From Marvania coccoides (taxonomy: Eukaryota > Chlorophyta > Trebouxiophyceae > Chlorellales > Chlorellaceae): a stretch of 64,000 nt of DNA. The notes beneath the pieces were generated by a model. The model had not been told where the DNA came from, searched no databases, and saw only the letters and a program-made list of their open reading frames with translations. The stretch lies in the NCBI GenBank assembly GCA_963854735.1, contig OY978100.1, forward strand, positions 2,108,001 through 2,172,000, written 5' to 3'. Numbering within the stretch: the first letter of the stretch is position 1; each line of letters starts with the position of its first letter. The position numbers and the translations under genes were made by a program. Positions 13,641 through 31,028 of the stretch are shown here, one piece after another.

Positions 13641-16600
13641 TTATAATGTGCAATGGTCCTCCCACTTAGCCTTCCAGGGATTTGTCGGTCCCGTCAAAAA
13701 CTCCACATCGCTTGCGTTTGGATAAAATATTCTGTATAAATTCTTCGCCAGCATGTTTTGGCTGTAGCCTGGAGAGAGCTTTTTGTAGCCGCCCGATTTT
13801 CGCGCTGCGGTGTCTCCGAGCATGGGGTTGGCGTATGCCCTGGATTAGGAGGGGATAAAAAGAACAAGGGTGAGCTTTTGCATGGATATTTTAAAGGGAA
13901 AAAAAATCAGCGTTTACGCTTACCAGTTGCTGTAGACGATATTGTTCAATGTGAGGAACGGTTCTGTGGGCTGCACCTTGCTCGGGCCATTCGTGATGGT
14001 AAATGCACGCATCATATCCGAATCTTCATGTCTTCATAAAAGAAAAAAGTACATCAGAATCATAAGGGCAAAAGATATGTGCAAAAGGAAAGACAGGTAT
14101 GTAAAAGGAAAGTGCAGCAATATAATATATACTCCTATATTGGGCATATGAAAAAGTACTCCTATATTTTTTCATTTTTGTATTATTTTCATAACCCATA
14201 AACCCATAAACCCAAACCCATATATAGGACTCTTTTTCTTACCTCAAGTTGTGGCAATGGAACATGTAGTCTCCCCTGATATAGCATCGAGCATCAAAAT
14301 GAGAAAATAAAGAGTATTGGAGGGGGGAATCATCAGGTTGCTGTCGCAAATACTCATTTCCTCACCTGTGGGCACCAAAGCGGGCGACTATCCAGATCTT
14401 TTCGCTGGGGCCTGCAAAGAAGAATACGAGAGGATTGTAACTCCGCACGAAAGGGTGACTAATGCTCCACAGCAGAGTCTGCGCAGTGGATCGCCAGAGA
14501 CCGGTAAAAACTGGACCCCCCAAGTGCCGGCTGTTTTGCGCACACACAAACACACAGCTCACCTAAAAAGAAAACGTCCTTGGGGCTGTTCAGCTCAAAG
14601 GTTTCTACAGAACGAGATGAGGAATCCCTGCAGAACAAGAAAAGTCAGCATTGAAATAATATTTTGAAAAACATATTTCGACTCAACGTTTTTTTCCTAT
14701 ATGTTTTCTATATTGTATGAATGGATTCTTTTTGCCGCAAGCCAAGTTAAGACTTCTTTGGGTCGCATGTTCTTTCGCAAATGTTGGCCCAAATTGAACC
14801 ATGGGAGAATTTTTCTACCTTCGGACGACATACAGGTCGACTAAATGGATGTGCACGGGGTGCTGCAAAAGGGCAATAACAATGAGTGAGTTTTTTTCTT
14901 CTGGGGGAAAGCATGACGCAGGGGGACCGGGAAAAAAATAATCGTCATCAAGTGGAGCGGCAAAACAACAAGTATTATGTTTCCATTACTTACATACTGA
15001 AGTGAGGGAAGGCGGAAGCGGGAAGGAGAAAGGCAAATATGTTAGCAAGTTCGTTTATTAAATACACAGAGGAATTGTATGGAGAAGCAAGCTTCTGTCG
15101 TGCAGATATGTTTCCGATGTCAAATGCTTACCCAGCCACCGCCTGTCTCGAAGCGCCACACCTCCCAGGTGTTCTGACCCACGTCCGCTGCTGCGATCTT
15201 GAACGAACCCCACGTCTCGCCGTTGATAGCCCACTGACCGCCCGTTTTCCCAAACTTCATGATACGATGCTGCTGGCCAGCCTGGGCCATCGCAACTGCC
15301 TGGGCCATGTCCAAATCGCTCATTACCCGGTGCATCGGCTGGTCGGGCTTGATGGTGGTGTCGGCAGCGTTAAAAACTGCGCCACTGCCCGATGCAGCGA
15401 CCTCAATTTTGGAGATGAGGTGAGAGTAGCAAAAATAGGGGACGTCCTTCATGACCTTGTCATTATGATCGTTCCAGATGTAGAGGGTCTGACCAGCATA
15501 TTTCTCCAGGTTGCACACCACTTCATATCGCTCTGCCACCCCTAGGAGGAGGCCTGCAGCAGGGAATAAAATGAAAAGGCGATGAAAGCACACCAACTTT
15601 GGGTCATCAACAAATATATAAACGAACCTGATGCGGGGAAAGCAACTGGCTCCTTGCGGAAGCCTCCGTCGCTGGCAATGACGAGGCAGACTTGGGGGCC
15701 AATGTCGTTGAGGGCGGCGTTCTTGATTTTCAACAGGTAGGGCCGGGACACAGCGGCATTGAGAACGCGCATGCGATAGTATTTGGGCTGGAGCATCATC
15801 TTAGGGAAGGGAATGCCTGCGCAGACGAGAAGCCACATATGTCCGGAAAAGCAAGTTGGTTAGCAGGGTTTTAGAAAGCACGGGGCCTCTCACTGGGCCA
15901 CCACTTTTAAGAAAGCTCTGGCCTCCACACCGTGTTTTAGAAGACGTCGCACGTCTTAAACAATTCGTATAATGTTATTGAACCTCTGCAAGGCAAGCAG
16001 CCTCTGAATTTCGCACATTTTGGGAAAAAGAGGTGATCAACTTGCAAAGAACACCCACCCTATTTGGTTCAGCCTGCCACACCATTCTCTGGCGCGTAAT
16101 TCCGATTGTTTATGCCACCCGTGGATATAATCAGCACGCGTGAGCCACTTTTTCGGCCATTGTTGAAGCATTTCCCTCTCGAGGATGGAAACCTGTCCTA
16201 CCAACAGCCAGCCAGGGAACACTGTAAGTTTCAAATTATACAATATGTGATGTACTGCGAGTTATATTTTATTGCAATGTGTCAATTGTTGTCTCAATTT
16301 TGTGACTCTTTTCAACATTTGATCTGATTTTCGGCACTGCGCAGGACTCCTTCGTGGGCCGTGCGCATGGTTTACGCGACCTGGCCAGTCAGAATCCTGA
16401 CTGGGAGATCCACGAGCGCAGAAATATGCCTTATCCGTACGGTAACCTCCCCAAAAGTGCATGGGGGGAAAAAATGGTCCACATCGTCCACGGCTGCAAG
16501 TTTGGGAAGAAGGAAACTGAGAGTCGTTGTCCTGAGAGCGAACAGAAAGCGACCGCCAAGGTCGGCTGCCCCTGGGAACTCGTGGTGGTGGGTTGGGCGG

Positions 16601-19600
16601 ACCGCCCCGGCGAGCTCTACATCTTCGACAGGCATGGGCACGTTGGGCACGTGCCTGGAGCTGGGCTAGATCAACGGCTCCGCAATATCCTCCCTCGCGT
16701 GAAAGAGGAGGCGCTACCGGTACCGGATATTTGAAATTTGAAATTTGTCAGCGCCATATATAACTATTTTTCTATACCTTCTGCAGCTGCTGAAGTACGG
16801 CATGACCCCATTCAGGGTGCTGCAGGTGCTGGAGGAGAAGTTCAACTTCGGCATCGGCTCCGACGGCAACTTCAACTCGAGACAGCTGCCCACGCTGCGG
16901 GAGCTTCAAAACCTCCAGAAAACTGTGCAGCACGAGCTCCGCCCCAACAGAAACGACAGCCTCAGCCTGCAGCATCTCGTAGACGGCCTGAAGCACGGCA
17001 GCCCTGGCGTCGTGCTCAAGTACCGCCCCCAAGTGATGGACGACGGGAAAATCACGCAGCACTTCATGCTGGTCCTGTCCACCCCCTTCCTCACCCGCAT
17101 GCTGAAGACCTTTGGGAGCCGCCTCGTCTTCATGGACGCCACCTATGGGATGATCAAGTACGGCTACCCCCTCATCTCCATCGTCGTCCGGGACGAGTTC
17201 ACCAACGCCGTGCCGGTGGCGTTCTGCATAGCGGACAGCGAGGAGGCCGCTACGTACGAGGAGTTCTTGAAGATTGTGGCTGAGGTAAATTTGACAGTTC
17301 AATTTATAAATCACCGAGCGTCAATACCTTTGATTTATTTCAAATTTCCTCACTATTTTGAGTTAATCACTGTGAAATTTATTCATAATATTGTCCAATC
17401 TATCGTTACAGGCGGCGGACTTCAAGTTCGACTCCATCATGATCGACAAGTCTCCTGCAGAGATGGCGGCGTGTCAGGCGCTGGACATCAAGTTCCTGCT
17501 CTGCATCTTCCACGCCATGCAGGCCATCGAGCGCTTCTGCAAGTCTCACAAAAGTGGCGTGCAGGGCGTGGAGAAGAAAGGCCTGCGGCTCAATATCTAC
17601 GCAGCGCTGCGGGGCGTCATGCGGTCCACCTCAGAGGCGGAGTTCAAGGCCAACTCTGAGGCTTTCAAGCGGCGCTTGACCGATGACGGGGATCTTGGCA
17701 ATTATCCAGCCTTGGTCAGCTACTACGCGGCGGAGTGGGAGTCGTGTGCTGTGCGCTGGGCAATGTTCGGCCGCCGTGGGCTGGACGACCTCCAGAGCAA
17801 CACCAACAACCTCGCTGAGTCCGCGCAGTACAAGATCAAGTACCATTTCAGCGGAAAGAAGGTGGGGAAGCGCGTAGACGACGTGGTGCGGCTCCTTCTC
17901 AAGGCAATGCAACACTACTTGGCCGACCGCTTACGCAAACACTCCGGCATGGTGCGCACTGGGGCAGAGGCGGCCGACGAATCGTATGCGAAGCGGGTGG
18001 AGCGGGTAGAAAAGCTGCCGAACGGGGTGACTCGGGTGGATGCGGGGGTAGGGCGGTGCCGCGTTCGCAGCGCCAACAAGGTGTGCCCTTTTAAGAGTCA
18101 TGACACGGTTATCGGCGACTTGTCGTGTGACTGCGGTGCTGACGGTGTGTGCCACCACCTCCATGCCGCCGCCAACAAGTTCCCCTACACCTCAGATTTG
18201 CTGAAGTCCATAGCAGCTGCTTGCGCTGAGAAGCACAAATCTGGTGAGAAAAGGCATTCATTCTCTACAATGCTCTCTCCAAGGTTAAAATTGTATAAAT
18301 TCTTCTGGTTCTTTGCCTTCATTCACGAATATATAATCAAGAATTCAAATAAGACAAGTAATATCGCTTCAAATTCAAACTTCATTTTTTCATCCAGGCG
18401 CTGCGAAGTTCACCAATCTCCCCGGCAGCCAAGAGGGTGAAAAGCTTTTCTTGTCCCCCAACCTCGCCGGCAACGGCAGCGCTGTCATCAGCGCGTTGGA
18501 GGGCATTTGCAGCTGCCCCGTCTACGATGTCGCCCGCGTGTGCCCCCACCTCCTCGCTGGCGCCTCCCTGCCGGAAGTTGGGGCTATCCTGCACCTAGAG
18601 GAGCCCCCTGACATCGTGGAGGTTGCGCGGCCTGCTCGCATGGGCCCATCTCCGGAGAAGGAGCCGCTGATCTCTCTTGGCGCTGCGAAAAAAGAGTTGG
18701 ATGCGCTCACGACCGCGATGAAGACGGCGCAGCCTAGGATGAAGCTGGGACCAATGAGGATGGAGGTAAAGCGCACCGTGCAAGGCATAATGGCTGCCCT
18801 CCCCTCCATTTCAGAGGATGTTGCCGCAGCGCACCTGCCGGCGCTGAAGGCCACATTCCAGCAAATAAAAGAGGCGGAGCAGAAGTTTGCGGCCACACAA
18901 GTGCAGGTGGGCAAGCAGCAGACGCGGGCTGCGGGGCGCCGCGTGGAGAGGCCGCTTTTCGCCGGGAGGACGAGCGGGCGCAGCAAGGGCCACTTCACAG
19001 CCGGAGGAGGCCGCGGCGAAGAGGAGGAGGTCACAGCAGAGTTCTCGCACGTGAAATCTGCTGGGAGGCCGAAAACCGGCGCGCGTGGGTGCGAGAGGCG
19101 GGGCTACTTGTCTCCGGCAGGCGGCAAGGCGGCGGAGGGAGACGATAATTTTTAAATTACACTACTTTTTACTCATTGATAGCTTTATTTATTTATTTTT
19201 GAATTTTTGGAATTGAATTCACTGTGTTTCCTCTCCGGAAAATGATGTAAACTGTATGTGCAATAAAATTGGAGGAGTGCATACAATTCCACGAGGCGTG
19301 CCAATGGGACCTTAATCGAGCTTCAAGAAATCATTATAAATAATGTTTATTAATAAGAAGCGGTGGGCGTAGTGTTGGCGGCTCGCAATTGTACGCTGAA
19401 AGTGTGTGAACTGCCGATCTCAACAAGCATGTGAAAACTCCAAAAACAATCGCGCCAAGTTACAACAGCCTGCGGAGCTATCAAATATAATACTAAAAAA
19501 AATTGTGTCCAGCGCAAAGGGTGTCATAATACTGTTTCGCACCCCCAAAAATGTTCAACTGATGAGAGTACGAAGGCCAAGAATCGCTGTACTTTGCTCC

Positions 19601-22600
19601 AATTTAGAGCTTAAACCCATACAGAATGGAGTATAAAAATTTAAATAAAGAATCTACACGCACGAGGAGGTGCGCCAAGTGTCTGGCAGTAAAAATTGTG
19701 TCAACGTGCCGGTGGACAACGGCAAAGAGTTCAAATTATAGTGTTCAAATTATACGTATTAAAAATCTCCAGGGAGGCGCATTTACAATTCAAGGTTACA
19801 CAAAGCTTGAGCAGCCTCGTCTTCCGTAATTTTTTCTTGCTCTGCCGCCATTGAAACAAATTTTTCAAGTTGAGAAATCTTCGATGCTCGTGAGTGGGGC
19901 TCCTTCAGGACAAGATCCAACTGACCGCCATCAAGCAGCTGCGAAAGAAAATCGTCATATTTATCAGCGGGAATTTTTATACATTCAACATCCTGCACCG
20001 GCTCGATGGTGCGTTTTAACGGCTGCGCTCCTTTTTCGTTGACATGAAGGTACGAATTCTTCACGGAAACCACCACATCACCCACATCCAGCTTTATTTG
20101 AGAGTATTGCGCGGCCCAGCTCTCCACGAAGCCCTCCAGCGGCGGATTTCGGATGTAACGACCGCCGACCACCATCACCCGCTGCCCGGTTGCGGACGGG
20201 GCCACGCAGAGATGGGCTGAGAGAGGCAGCACCACGTAGTTCTCGGGGTTGGCGGGCCGCTTACGCTTCTTGTTGTCCACCACCTTGTTGTTGTCCAACA
20301 CAATGCCTTTCCTTTCGACCCCCACAATCACCGCTTGGTCATTTGAATTGAGGCGCTGCACAACCTTCCCTACAGCCATAGTCGGGGTAATCAACGTAAT
20401 AGAGTCATCGGGAAGGGGGAGGCAACGCTCAGGTGGAGGCGTACGGGCTCGTTGGGCTGCCGCCGCCACCGCGCAAGCTCGACGCTCCTCATTTTCCAAC
20501 AGTTTGGGCAGCACTCCTTCTAAATAAAATATGTGGGCGGCCGGGAGCAGATGTTCGAACCACAGAGCCTGCGATTGGTCATCCCAAGGCACGTCCCAAA
20601 ACGCCAAATTGTCGCCCACGCCTGCCACGACCACCGCTTTTGGAGGGCTGCCAAGCCAATCCACGAGCTCAGAGCTCACGGCAATCGCGAGCTGCATGAC
20701 GACCTGACACTCTGCTGCCCTGGGGAGGTCATCAGGTTCCCTTGAGGGGGCCTTAACCTCTAAAATGAAGGCCTCAGACCTGGCTTCGTTCACCACCCAG
20801 TAGTCCATCGATGCGCTTAAGTGCGGGTAGTCTGGATGCAGGAGAAGGCCAACTTCGTGAAGCTTGTAGACGCCCCCCTTTCTCTTCTGCGATTTAGATG
20901 ATAGAACCAGGTGAAATGGGGCGAAATCGCCTTCAGAAACGGAGGTAAGTAGCTTACCTGAAGATCAAGGATGTAATTGTCAGCGATGCTGCGCTGCAGA
21001 TCGATCCCCCGCTGCATGTGCGTGGTAACCTTAGGCGGGTTAAATATTTCGTGAAGAACATCCTCGATAGAGGGGTGTGAAACGAGCCCAGCGATGACCG
21101 CAATTCTGCTGGCTGTAACTCGCAGTTGCCGCTCATCATGCCACTGTTCTGAGCCCTGCTCCATCTTAAATAATTCCTTGGCCTTCACTGAACAATAATC
21201 ACGTGTCCCCATGGCCTCCATTTGCCGCATCTGGATCGGGTCGATGGACATCGATGCCATATTTAAAGTTTAGACTGCAATTCAAGTTGCCTGAAGCATA
21301 AAGCTAACATTAATGATCCCATGCATTGATTAAATGCGGCGAAACGTGCCGAAACGCTCGGAAAAGCGCGGAGTGCCCTTAAAAGTGGTGGCCCAGTGAT
21401 CGTGTTCTTGCTTTTAGAAAAGAACATGCATAAAGGGATCAGAAAAACGAGCTTCTTTTTTCTCAGGGTACGCTGGGTATATTGTGTATAAAAGCAGCGC
21501 AAAAGATACATTTCTTACCGCTAACAAGGTTAATGTCGCCGTAGAAGTTGTCGCGGTGGGGGCCATCGGCGTCCAGAGCAAGCTGGCAAGAAGAGTCAAG
21601 CGCCTTGTCCTGAAGGATCATGTGCAGCTCCTCAATATCTTCCATGTTCCATGGCTCGCCGCACGCGCCGTCTTTCGCTTTTGCACTGACGAGGTAAAGG
21701 CCCGCAAGGCCGTAATACGCGTTGGCCGCAGTGATGTGCAGAGCGTGGTCATGGTACCTTCATTGCACAAATTTGTTTGCGCAATTAAAAAACCTTCAGC
21801 ATGTTTGAAACGCATAGAACCTGAATTTGGGTACTCACCATCCAGTGACAGGGCGGTTGTTTGGGTACAAATATTCTTTGACCTCGCCGAAGCATGTCTC
21901 GTCCTCTGCCCAGCCGTCAAATGGAGCCAGGGACGCGCTGCCGTGCAGATGGACGGAGAAGGGACGGCCAGATCGGCCAGGCGCGTCGCAGGGGTGCACA
22001 GTTCCGTTCAGAACACCGGAGATCTTGTTTTTGTAGCGCACTATGGTTTCATGGCCCGCAGGCGCCACGATGGTGGGTCCAGGGATAGTGCCAGCATAGC
22101 TGCAGCGAAAAACGCCTAATCAATAACCTCCCAGCCTTTCCATTTCTATTTTTTTAATGCAATTTTATTGCGTAAAAAACCAGCTCAGCATACCTCAAAA
22201 AACGCGTGGGCGTGGCTGCGCACGAAGGGATGAGGCTGGTCCAGGGCGTCAGCTCGGTCTCGAGGACCTCGATCTCATAGGTGGAGATGCAATGGCCATC
22301 ATCCCGGCACGCCTTGTTCTGGCCGGCGACAATTGGGGGATTTCGAAAGATATCTTTGAATACGTTGAGCTGAAACGGAGTGCCAGGAAATCCGTCGACT
22401 TCATAAGCCACGTTCCCAGTGGGGCAGATTTTGTCCGGGGTGTCAAATGGAGAGGCGGGCGGAGGGACGTTGACGGCAACGGGGTCGGCGACTACTGGGA
22501 CGGATGCAGCATCTTTCTTGACACGCCTCCTCACGCGCGCCGCCTGCCCATCACGAGCAAGGAGCACGGCAGCAAGCAATAGAACCAAGCACGACTTCCT

Positions 22601-30293: not shown

Positions 30294-31028
30294 TCAGCAG
30301 CGCTGAAACTCCAGCTTGACCAGAACGGACGCAGGGTGGCTGGAGATTGCAGCCATCACCGTGTCAAAGCTCTCGCCACGCACTTGCAGCCGCACAACCT
30401 GCTCCCCTCCTCGCACCACGATCTCGCCGTACGTCTGCTCTGTCGTCCGAGTGTACCTGAAAAAGAAAAAGAATAAGATGAGAGAATGCTTTATTTTAGA
30501 AAGGCAATAATATAATTATACAATAAATTCCTCAGTTTATTTAAATAAAAAATAATAATGACGGTTGCTGAAGCGCTTTCGCCATGCTCGGGTCGCGCAA
30601 TCATGGTGCGAAAGAGGGACGGCGCCATTTTTTTAAGCAGCAGGATGCAATTGAGAAGCAAAACGTTCAACTCACCCGGATGTCGCAACCAGCTGGTCTC
30701 CCACGCCAATCAGGCCTGCACGCTCGGCGTTTCCTCCTGCCAACACCTCCGCGACAACGATGGACCCCGCTTGCTTGTTCTCCTCTAACACCAGGCCCAG
30801 AGGCTTGTTCAGCGTGACGCTGTAGCGAGCGCATCCAGGTGGGACTTCGTCCATCGACTGCTGCGCTGGAGGAGTACCATTTTCCAAAGCACGGACCACC
30901 ACGGCGGCGGGGCGCCTGGGAGTGAAGTCGTGTGCACAGGGGCTTGATGCTGGCCGCAGGCGTTGCTTTAAAAAGGCGTGGGTGGGGTGGAGGTGGGTCC
31001 GTGCGATGGATTGAATTTGCAGAGCCAT
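30294..31028 (-). CDS. Plastid-targeted PDZ-domain protein
   Basis: Exons 30676-31028 and 30294-30456, 171 residues. The first 48 residues are basic, hydroxyl-rich and free of acidic residues, typical of a chloroplast or mitochondrial targeting peptide. A single PDZ domain follows (about 68-165): 'YSVTLNKPLGLVLEENKQAGSIVVAEVLAGG' is shortened here to its key parts PLGLVLEE and 'AGLIGVGDQLVATSG', the carboxylate-binding loop and the alpha/beta turn. The last exon gives 'VVRLQVRGESFDTVMAAISSH'. Proteins of this kind are found in plants as stand-alone stromal PDZ proteins; the ligand is unknown. The protein is complete and in frame. Confidence 0.8.

Follow-up and report, generated by a model that had tools for sequence, protein, structure and literature searches.

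A candidate Mutator-like transposon with a YqaJ-type second gene inside an intron of a multicopper oxidase gene of Marvania coccoides

How does a gene built of short introns come to carry one of 5702 nt, and what is the DNA that fills it? The question is raised by a bilirubin-oxidase-like multicopper oxidase gene (22603-13641, minus strand; 11 exons, 671 codons) of the green alga Marvania coccoides, in a 64,000-nucleotide stretch of contig OY978100.1 (positions 2,108,001 to 2,172,000; hereafter the window, to which unlabelled coordinates refer). All ten of its introns run from GT to AG, and the nine besides intron 3 measure 74-269 nt. Intron 3 (15817-21518, minus strand) contains a 5534-bp element (15878-21411); minus this element and one copy of its target-site duplication, the intron would be 159 nt long. 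The sequence supports classification of the element as a complete and recent Mutator-like element (MULE), lying wholly within the intron. We consider it very probable that it is a cut-and-paste DNA transposon of the MULE superfamily, recently inserted. Its second gene, of YqaJ type, is a less ordinary feature than its intron position.

The boundaries of the element are marked by repeats at its ends. A 9-bp target-site duplication, TTTTAGAAA, occupies 15869-15877 on the left and 21412-21420 on the right (strand not applicable), which confirms both the perfect flanking repeat and the 5534-bp length described in an earlier note on this DNA. TTTTAGAAA occurs once more in the window, at 30494, and is absent from its opposite strand. 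Inside the duplications lie terminal inverted repeats of 34 nt (left, 15878-15911, plus strand; right, 21378-21411, minus strand) that match at 27 of 34 positions. The earlier note had the length of these termini right, while their identical inner block measures 22 nt and not the 21 it gave. This block is the sole perfect inverted repeat of at least 20 nt spaced 1-10 kb within the window. Searching the genome assembly (22.46 Mb, 15 contigs) with up to two mismatches allowed, we found the inner 22-mer 11 times (5 forward, 6 reverse), always exactly; the same letters read backwards, as a control, gave 0 occurrences. The genome counts and the uniqueness of the repeat in the window ruled out a chance origin. 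Scans of the window with Rfam (gathering scores) and for tRNA genes returned no match.

The 11 occurrences form five pairs of equal spacing and one single end. Each pair bounds a full 5534-bp copy: the window copy, L009, L010, L011, and L013. Copies with different ends had been named in advance as evidence against the proposed boundaries; the ends are alike in all five. L009, L010, and L011 show no difference from the window copy, and for these four identical copies the upper 95% bound on divergence, assuming a star-shaped history, is 1.4e-4 per site. Clear 9-bp duplications flank three of the five copies (TTTTAGAAA in the window, AATGAAAAA for L010, and TTATAGTAT for L011). L009 is bordered on both sides by a TTA tract, with which the duplication TTATTATTA is compatible, not provable. 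The presence of identical copies at separate sites suggests transposition of the family, as far as sequence can tell. The earlier proposal of a recent insertion agrees with the three copies identical to that in the window, its intact duplication, and its open genes. Relics were also found: L012, internally deleted and of 90-94% identity, and further pieces at 75-80% identity on C3, C13, and C8. The right end is present in L012 and is reached by three of the four relics overall, and those on C3 and C13 (75-78% identity) retain pieces of the YqaJ gene. When the genome was searched with the Pfam MULE model, each of the five full copies was matched once, and no second MULE family was seen at E up to 0.01; six candidates were scored, and these copy counts are lower bounds.

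The element contains two convergent genes. The first, on the plus strand, consists of five open exons that splice to 833 codons and encodes a putative transposase. Exon 1 (16185-16223; 39 nt) is the weakest, with GT/AG sites and a predicted start codon, and is followed by exon 2 (16345-16719), exon 3 (16787-17284), exon 4 (17412-18243), and exon 5 (18398-19155). The MULE domain (PF10551) was matched at E 8.6e-10, with 39.4 bits over a cut-off of 27.6, and a ZSWIM1-3 RNaseH-like model scored nearly the same (39.1 bits). With Pfam matches considered to E 1, the protein matched MULE, ZSWIM1-3 (twice), and rve_3, and no THAP or Harbinger DDE domain was found. The motif layout is D255-60-D316-123-E440. 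Exon 3 carries D255, the first catalytic Asp; exon 4 carries D316, E440, a CxxH motif between them (CIFH at 335), and the first of two CxC..CxH motifs, the second of which lies in exon 5 with the C-terminus. From an assignment by eye, we take D255, D316, and E440 to be a DDE triad and the CxxH and CxC..CxH motifs to be SWIM-type. The Mutator-like identity first read from the letters is thus upheld by the MULE domain, the triad, the SWIM-type motifs, and the 9-bp duplications. In a protein search with the transposase, 7999 candidates were scored and none reached E 0.01.

The second gene, on the minus strand, has two open exons (exon 1, 20958-21260; exon 2, 19783-20886) that splice to 468 codons. 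The earlier note had recognized that the genes of the element are open and had overlooked the YqaJ-type identity of this one, where the Pfam YqaJ model (PF09588) matches the spliced protein at E 1.9e-9 and 38.4 bits (cut-off 22). It is an entire gene, not a fragment, and is open in all five full copies. A protein search gave a single match among 8000 scored, P0001, a 356-residue protein with 68% identity from a 3584-base public contig. Common to both proteins are D129, E144, and K146 (encoded in exon 2), the Asp plus Glu-x-Lys set of the catalytic core of YqaJ or lambda-exonuclease-like nucleases. For this protein we favour a helper role at DNA ends as the most probable one. Within its gene, 20266-20301 forms a tandem 18-nt near-repeat where P0001 is shorter, perhaps through recent duplication. 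Compared with relic L012, exon 1 shows 21.5 amino-acid and 1.5 synonymous changes, too few for a claim of positive selection.

Other searches with this protein gave little. Among PDB sequences there were five weak matches (best E 0.27), none of them a nuclease, and a structure model of exon 2 with P0001 was too poor (mean pLDDT 30.7) and was discarded. Viral contigs scanned with the YqaJ-like protein, transposase exon 4 alone, and alignment A1 yielded no relative, nor did genome contigs scanned with alignment A1. The genome has a separate YqaJ-domain gene, a single exon of 587 codons (L043:487-2247; match C4:157110-157544). It shares with the element gene one 50-residue match (E 2e-4), the remainder being at chance level.

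We then return to the gene that received the insertion. Its 11 exons are open and in frame and the element sits wholly in intron 3, as the earlier note had it. The protein carries Cu-oxidase_2 and Cu-oxidase_3 domains, and its closest solved structure is bilirubin oxidase 2xll (E 2.8e-71), with an alignment that runs uninterrupted over the exon 3/4 junction. This junction is gap-free in 15 of 15 aligned relatives, hand-picked from 120 listed. A broken reading frame was ruled out by the in-frame exons and by the alignments to 2xll and these relatives. At junction 5/6 the gene model is without one Phe that all 15 have; whether a misplaced splice site or the loss of one codon is responsible is uncertain. 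Of 7998 proteins scored in the oxidase search, 422 reached E 0.001 or better, and the 120 listed have 53-59% identity. Proteins of bdelloid rotifers (Rotaria, Adineta) occur among those listed, and gene transfer is possible in the history of the family.

The oxidase is one member of a multigene family with at least 11 further loci (L059-L069), taken from 89 genome matches with some clusters left out. An intron occupies exactly the intron-3 site in seven of these 11 loci, with lengths of 134, 71, 161, 103, 129, 129, and 82 nt, and is absent from the other four. The original intron of 159 nt proposed in the earlier note fits, because these seven paralogs carry introns of 71-161 nt there. Intron 3 has kept intact splice sites, similar to those of the seven intron-bearing paralogs, and no exon of the oxidase shows decay. 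Given such paralog-like splice sites, intron 3 is probably still removed by the host, and the oxidase that the earlier note calls working is putatively so. Tolerance of the insertion would be explained by the position of the original splice sites, which lie outside the element and are still joinable. The YqaJ-like gene is read in the host sense and may end or hijack part of the host transcripts.

The earlier note presented the intron position as a puzzle, which our data suggest was overstated. Three of the five copies lie in introns, two are intergenic, and none is in a recognised coding exon (the count covers coding exons only). L009 interrupts an expansin-like gene, in an intron of 5951 nt with the element and 408 without, and the DPBB_1 match of this gene crosses the junction at 25.6 bits, under the Pfam cut-off of 28.8. 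L011 lies in an intron inside the ketosynthase region of a polyketide synthase gene (5636 nt with the element, 93 without). Of the intergenic copies, L010 has a RING-variant gene on one side and on the other a small gene, predicted by eye, and L013 lies between the Med31 and Paf1 genes. The four duplications, including TTATTATTA, hold 3 G/C in 36 letters (P ~2e-6 at 45% G/C), and the three clear ones alone hold 3 in 27 (P 0.0002 at 45% and 0.005 at 35% G/C). Around the three clear insertions, the 200-nt flanks are 41-46% G/C, and the window is 55% G/C. In the oxidase gene, 9-mers holding no more than one G/C take up 142 of the 1307 positions in introns and 21 of the 1928 in exons, making them about ten-fold commoner in introns. 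A preference for A/T-rich targets would therefore have led insertions to introns. Since such 9-mers concentrate in the introns of the host gene, the address needs no special explanation, and an intron location is in itself ordinary.

These features fit a simple model of movement. The transposase would bind the terminal repeats, then excise the element and join it to a 9-bp staggered cut. A/T-rich targets would be chosen, and in G/C-leaning DNA these would fall mostly outside coding exons. During excision or insertion, the YqaJ-like protein would most likely help at broken DNA ends.

Several observations weigh against a recent, targeted insertion assisted by a nuclease. L013 (2002-7535) differs from the window copy at three positions and has no target-site duplication, which recombination or a deletion next to it might explain. 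Part of the identity among copies could stem from gene conversion or assembly, and target choice is deduced from a small sample of five. YqaJ nucleases usually have Glu as the first-motif residue, as the host's own YqaJ gene does when read by eye; the intact copies and relics L012 and C3 have Gln. Constraint is not seen on the YqaJ gene when compared with L012 (dN/dS 1.51), a value that rests on few synonymous changes (9.5) and on a relic that may have decayed freely; the C-terminus of the transposase gives 0.4 against the same relic. The substituted Glu, the lack of constraint, and the separate single-exon gene on C4 would suit a YqaJ-like gene that is a host-captured passenger without a role in transposition. 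We find this unlikely, as the gene is entire and open in every full copy, P0001 keeps the core Asp, Glu, and Lys, and the element gene is barely similar to that of the host. The C3 and C13 relics also argue against it: because these older copies carry YqaJ pieces, the link between YqaJ and MULE is not new.

The fate of the host gene and the bias toward introns can likewise be read in other ways. Transcripts might end inside the element, or exon 3 might be joined to the acceptor of the YqaJ gene at 20887, leaving the oxidase silenced or truncated, with exons that are open merely through youth. The YqaJ-like gene lies on the oxidase strand and requires a 3' end of its own. Oxidase exon 3 finishes in phase 1 and the acceptor of YqaJ exon 2 has phase 0, so a transcript joining the two would not stay in the oxidase frame. 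The element copies are also too young for dead exons to have decayed, and the 11 or more paralogous loci could cover a loss. We hold silencing to be possible but somewhat improbable, seeing the undecayed exons and intact, paralog-like intron 3 splice sites. As for the introns, selection alone might produce the bias if insertion were indiscriminate and exonic copies had been lost. Five full copies are few, and their absence from recognised coding exons says little in favour of target choice. However, selection alone seems to us quite doubtful, since the duplications are A/T-rich beyond their local composition (3 of 36 G/C; flanks of 41-46% for the three clear cases).

A transposase paired with a YqaJ exonuclease-domain gene has been described for ISL2EU, PIF/Harbinger-like elements of the PHIS superfamily averaging ~4.8 kb (PMC4482050, PMC9179366). 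These sources report AT dinucleotide duplications, a DDE/HTH/THAP transposase, and an occurrence there only in animals. Our element shares the two-gene plan with ISL2EU but has 9-bp duplications and a MULE transposase, and membership was ruled out by duplication length and transposase type. What such second genes do is given as unknown in the PHIS study (PMC4482050). Excision of Muta1 was ~90% precise with flanking duplications and ~10% without them (PMC5225508). Since that precision depends on the duplications, we propose that a protein exposing them would be useful. By extension, and as a conjecture that we rate as improbable in full, a MULE lineage independently took up the helper of ISL2EU. 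YqaJ trimming would then expose the 9-bp duplications for annealing, giving clean excision or copy-restoring repair and, with A/T targeting, a low-cost life in the introns of a compact genome. If true, the same nuclease helper in two transposon superfamilies would point to a need common to both, at the donor or target break. The five young copies, three of them in introns of 93-408 nt without the element, also provide a natural test of how introns of 5.6-6 kb are spliced in short-intron genes.

Elsewhere, YqaJ genes were counted as recombinases in a scallop study (PMC10225492), and a clam genome study described YqaJ-type elements able to fuse with transposases (PMC7826175). A pairing of YqaJ with MULE, MuDR, or Mutator was not found in open-licence PMC literature, a search with supplements and Repbase outside it, and YqaJ is not mentioned in the available portion of PMC6431247. 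Regarding targets, all but 14 of 218 copies of MuTAnT, a microsatellite-targeting MULE of Medicago, lie in TA repeats, and a 'safe haven' interpretation of intron and UTR (untranslated region) sites was published there (PMC4486113). A/T-rich or microsatellite targets and intron locations are common to MuTAnT and our element, of which L009 lies in a TTA tract; unlike MuTAnT, our element is found in a microsatellite in only one of its five copies, and it has a second gene. Sequence preference was not seen for mosquito Muta1 in yeast (PMC5225508).

Among MULEs in general, duplications of 8-11 bp and terminal repeats from 14 bp are described (Dupeyron 2019, PMC6446971). Our element shares with them the MULE domain, DDE triad, SWIM-type motifs, 9-bp duplications, and short terminal repeats. 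Arthropod MULEs of six species have two open reading frames (ORFs), given as parts of the transposase (PMC13359780). The second ORF of MULE-Co (group 6, Filozoa) is described as unknown, and mudrB of maize MuDR is apparently required for integration, with a function described as unknown (PMC6446971). MuDR resembles our element in having two genes. Unlike the groups in the rows of the MULE table consulted, our element has a second gene of YqaJ type, which none of those rows names (PMC6446971). Because YqaJ is recorded for ISL2EU and unnamed in that table, we term the element a variant of MULEs.

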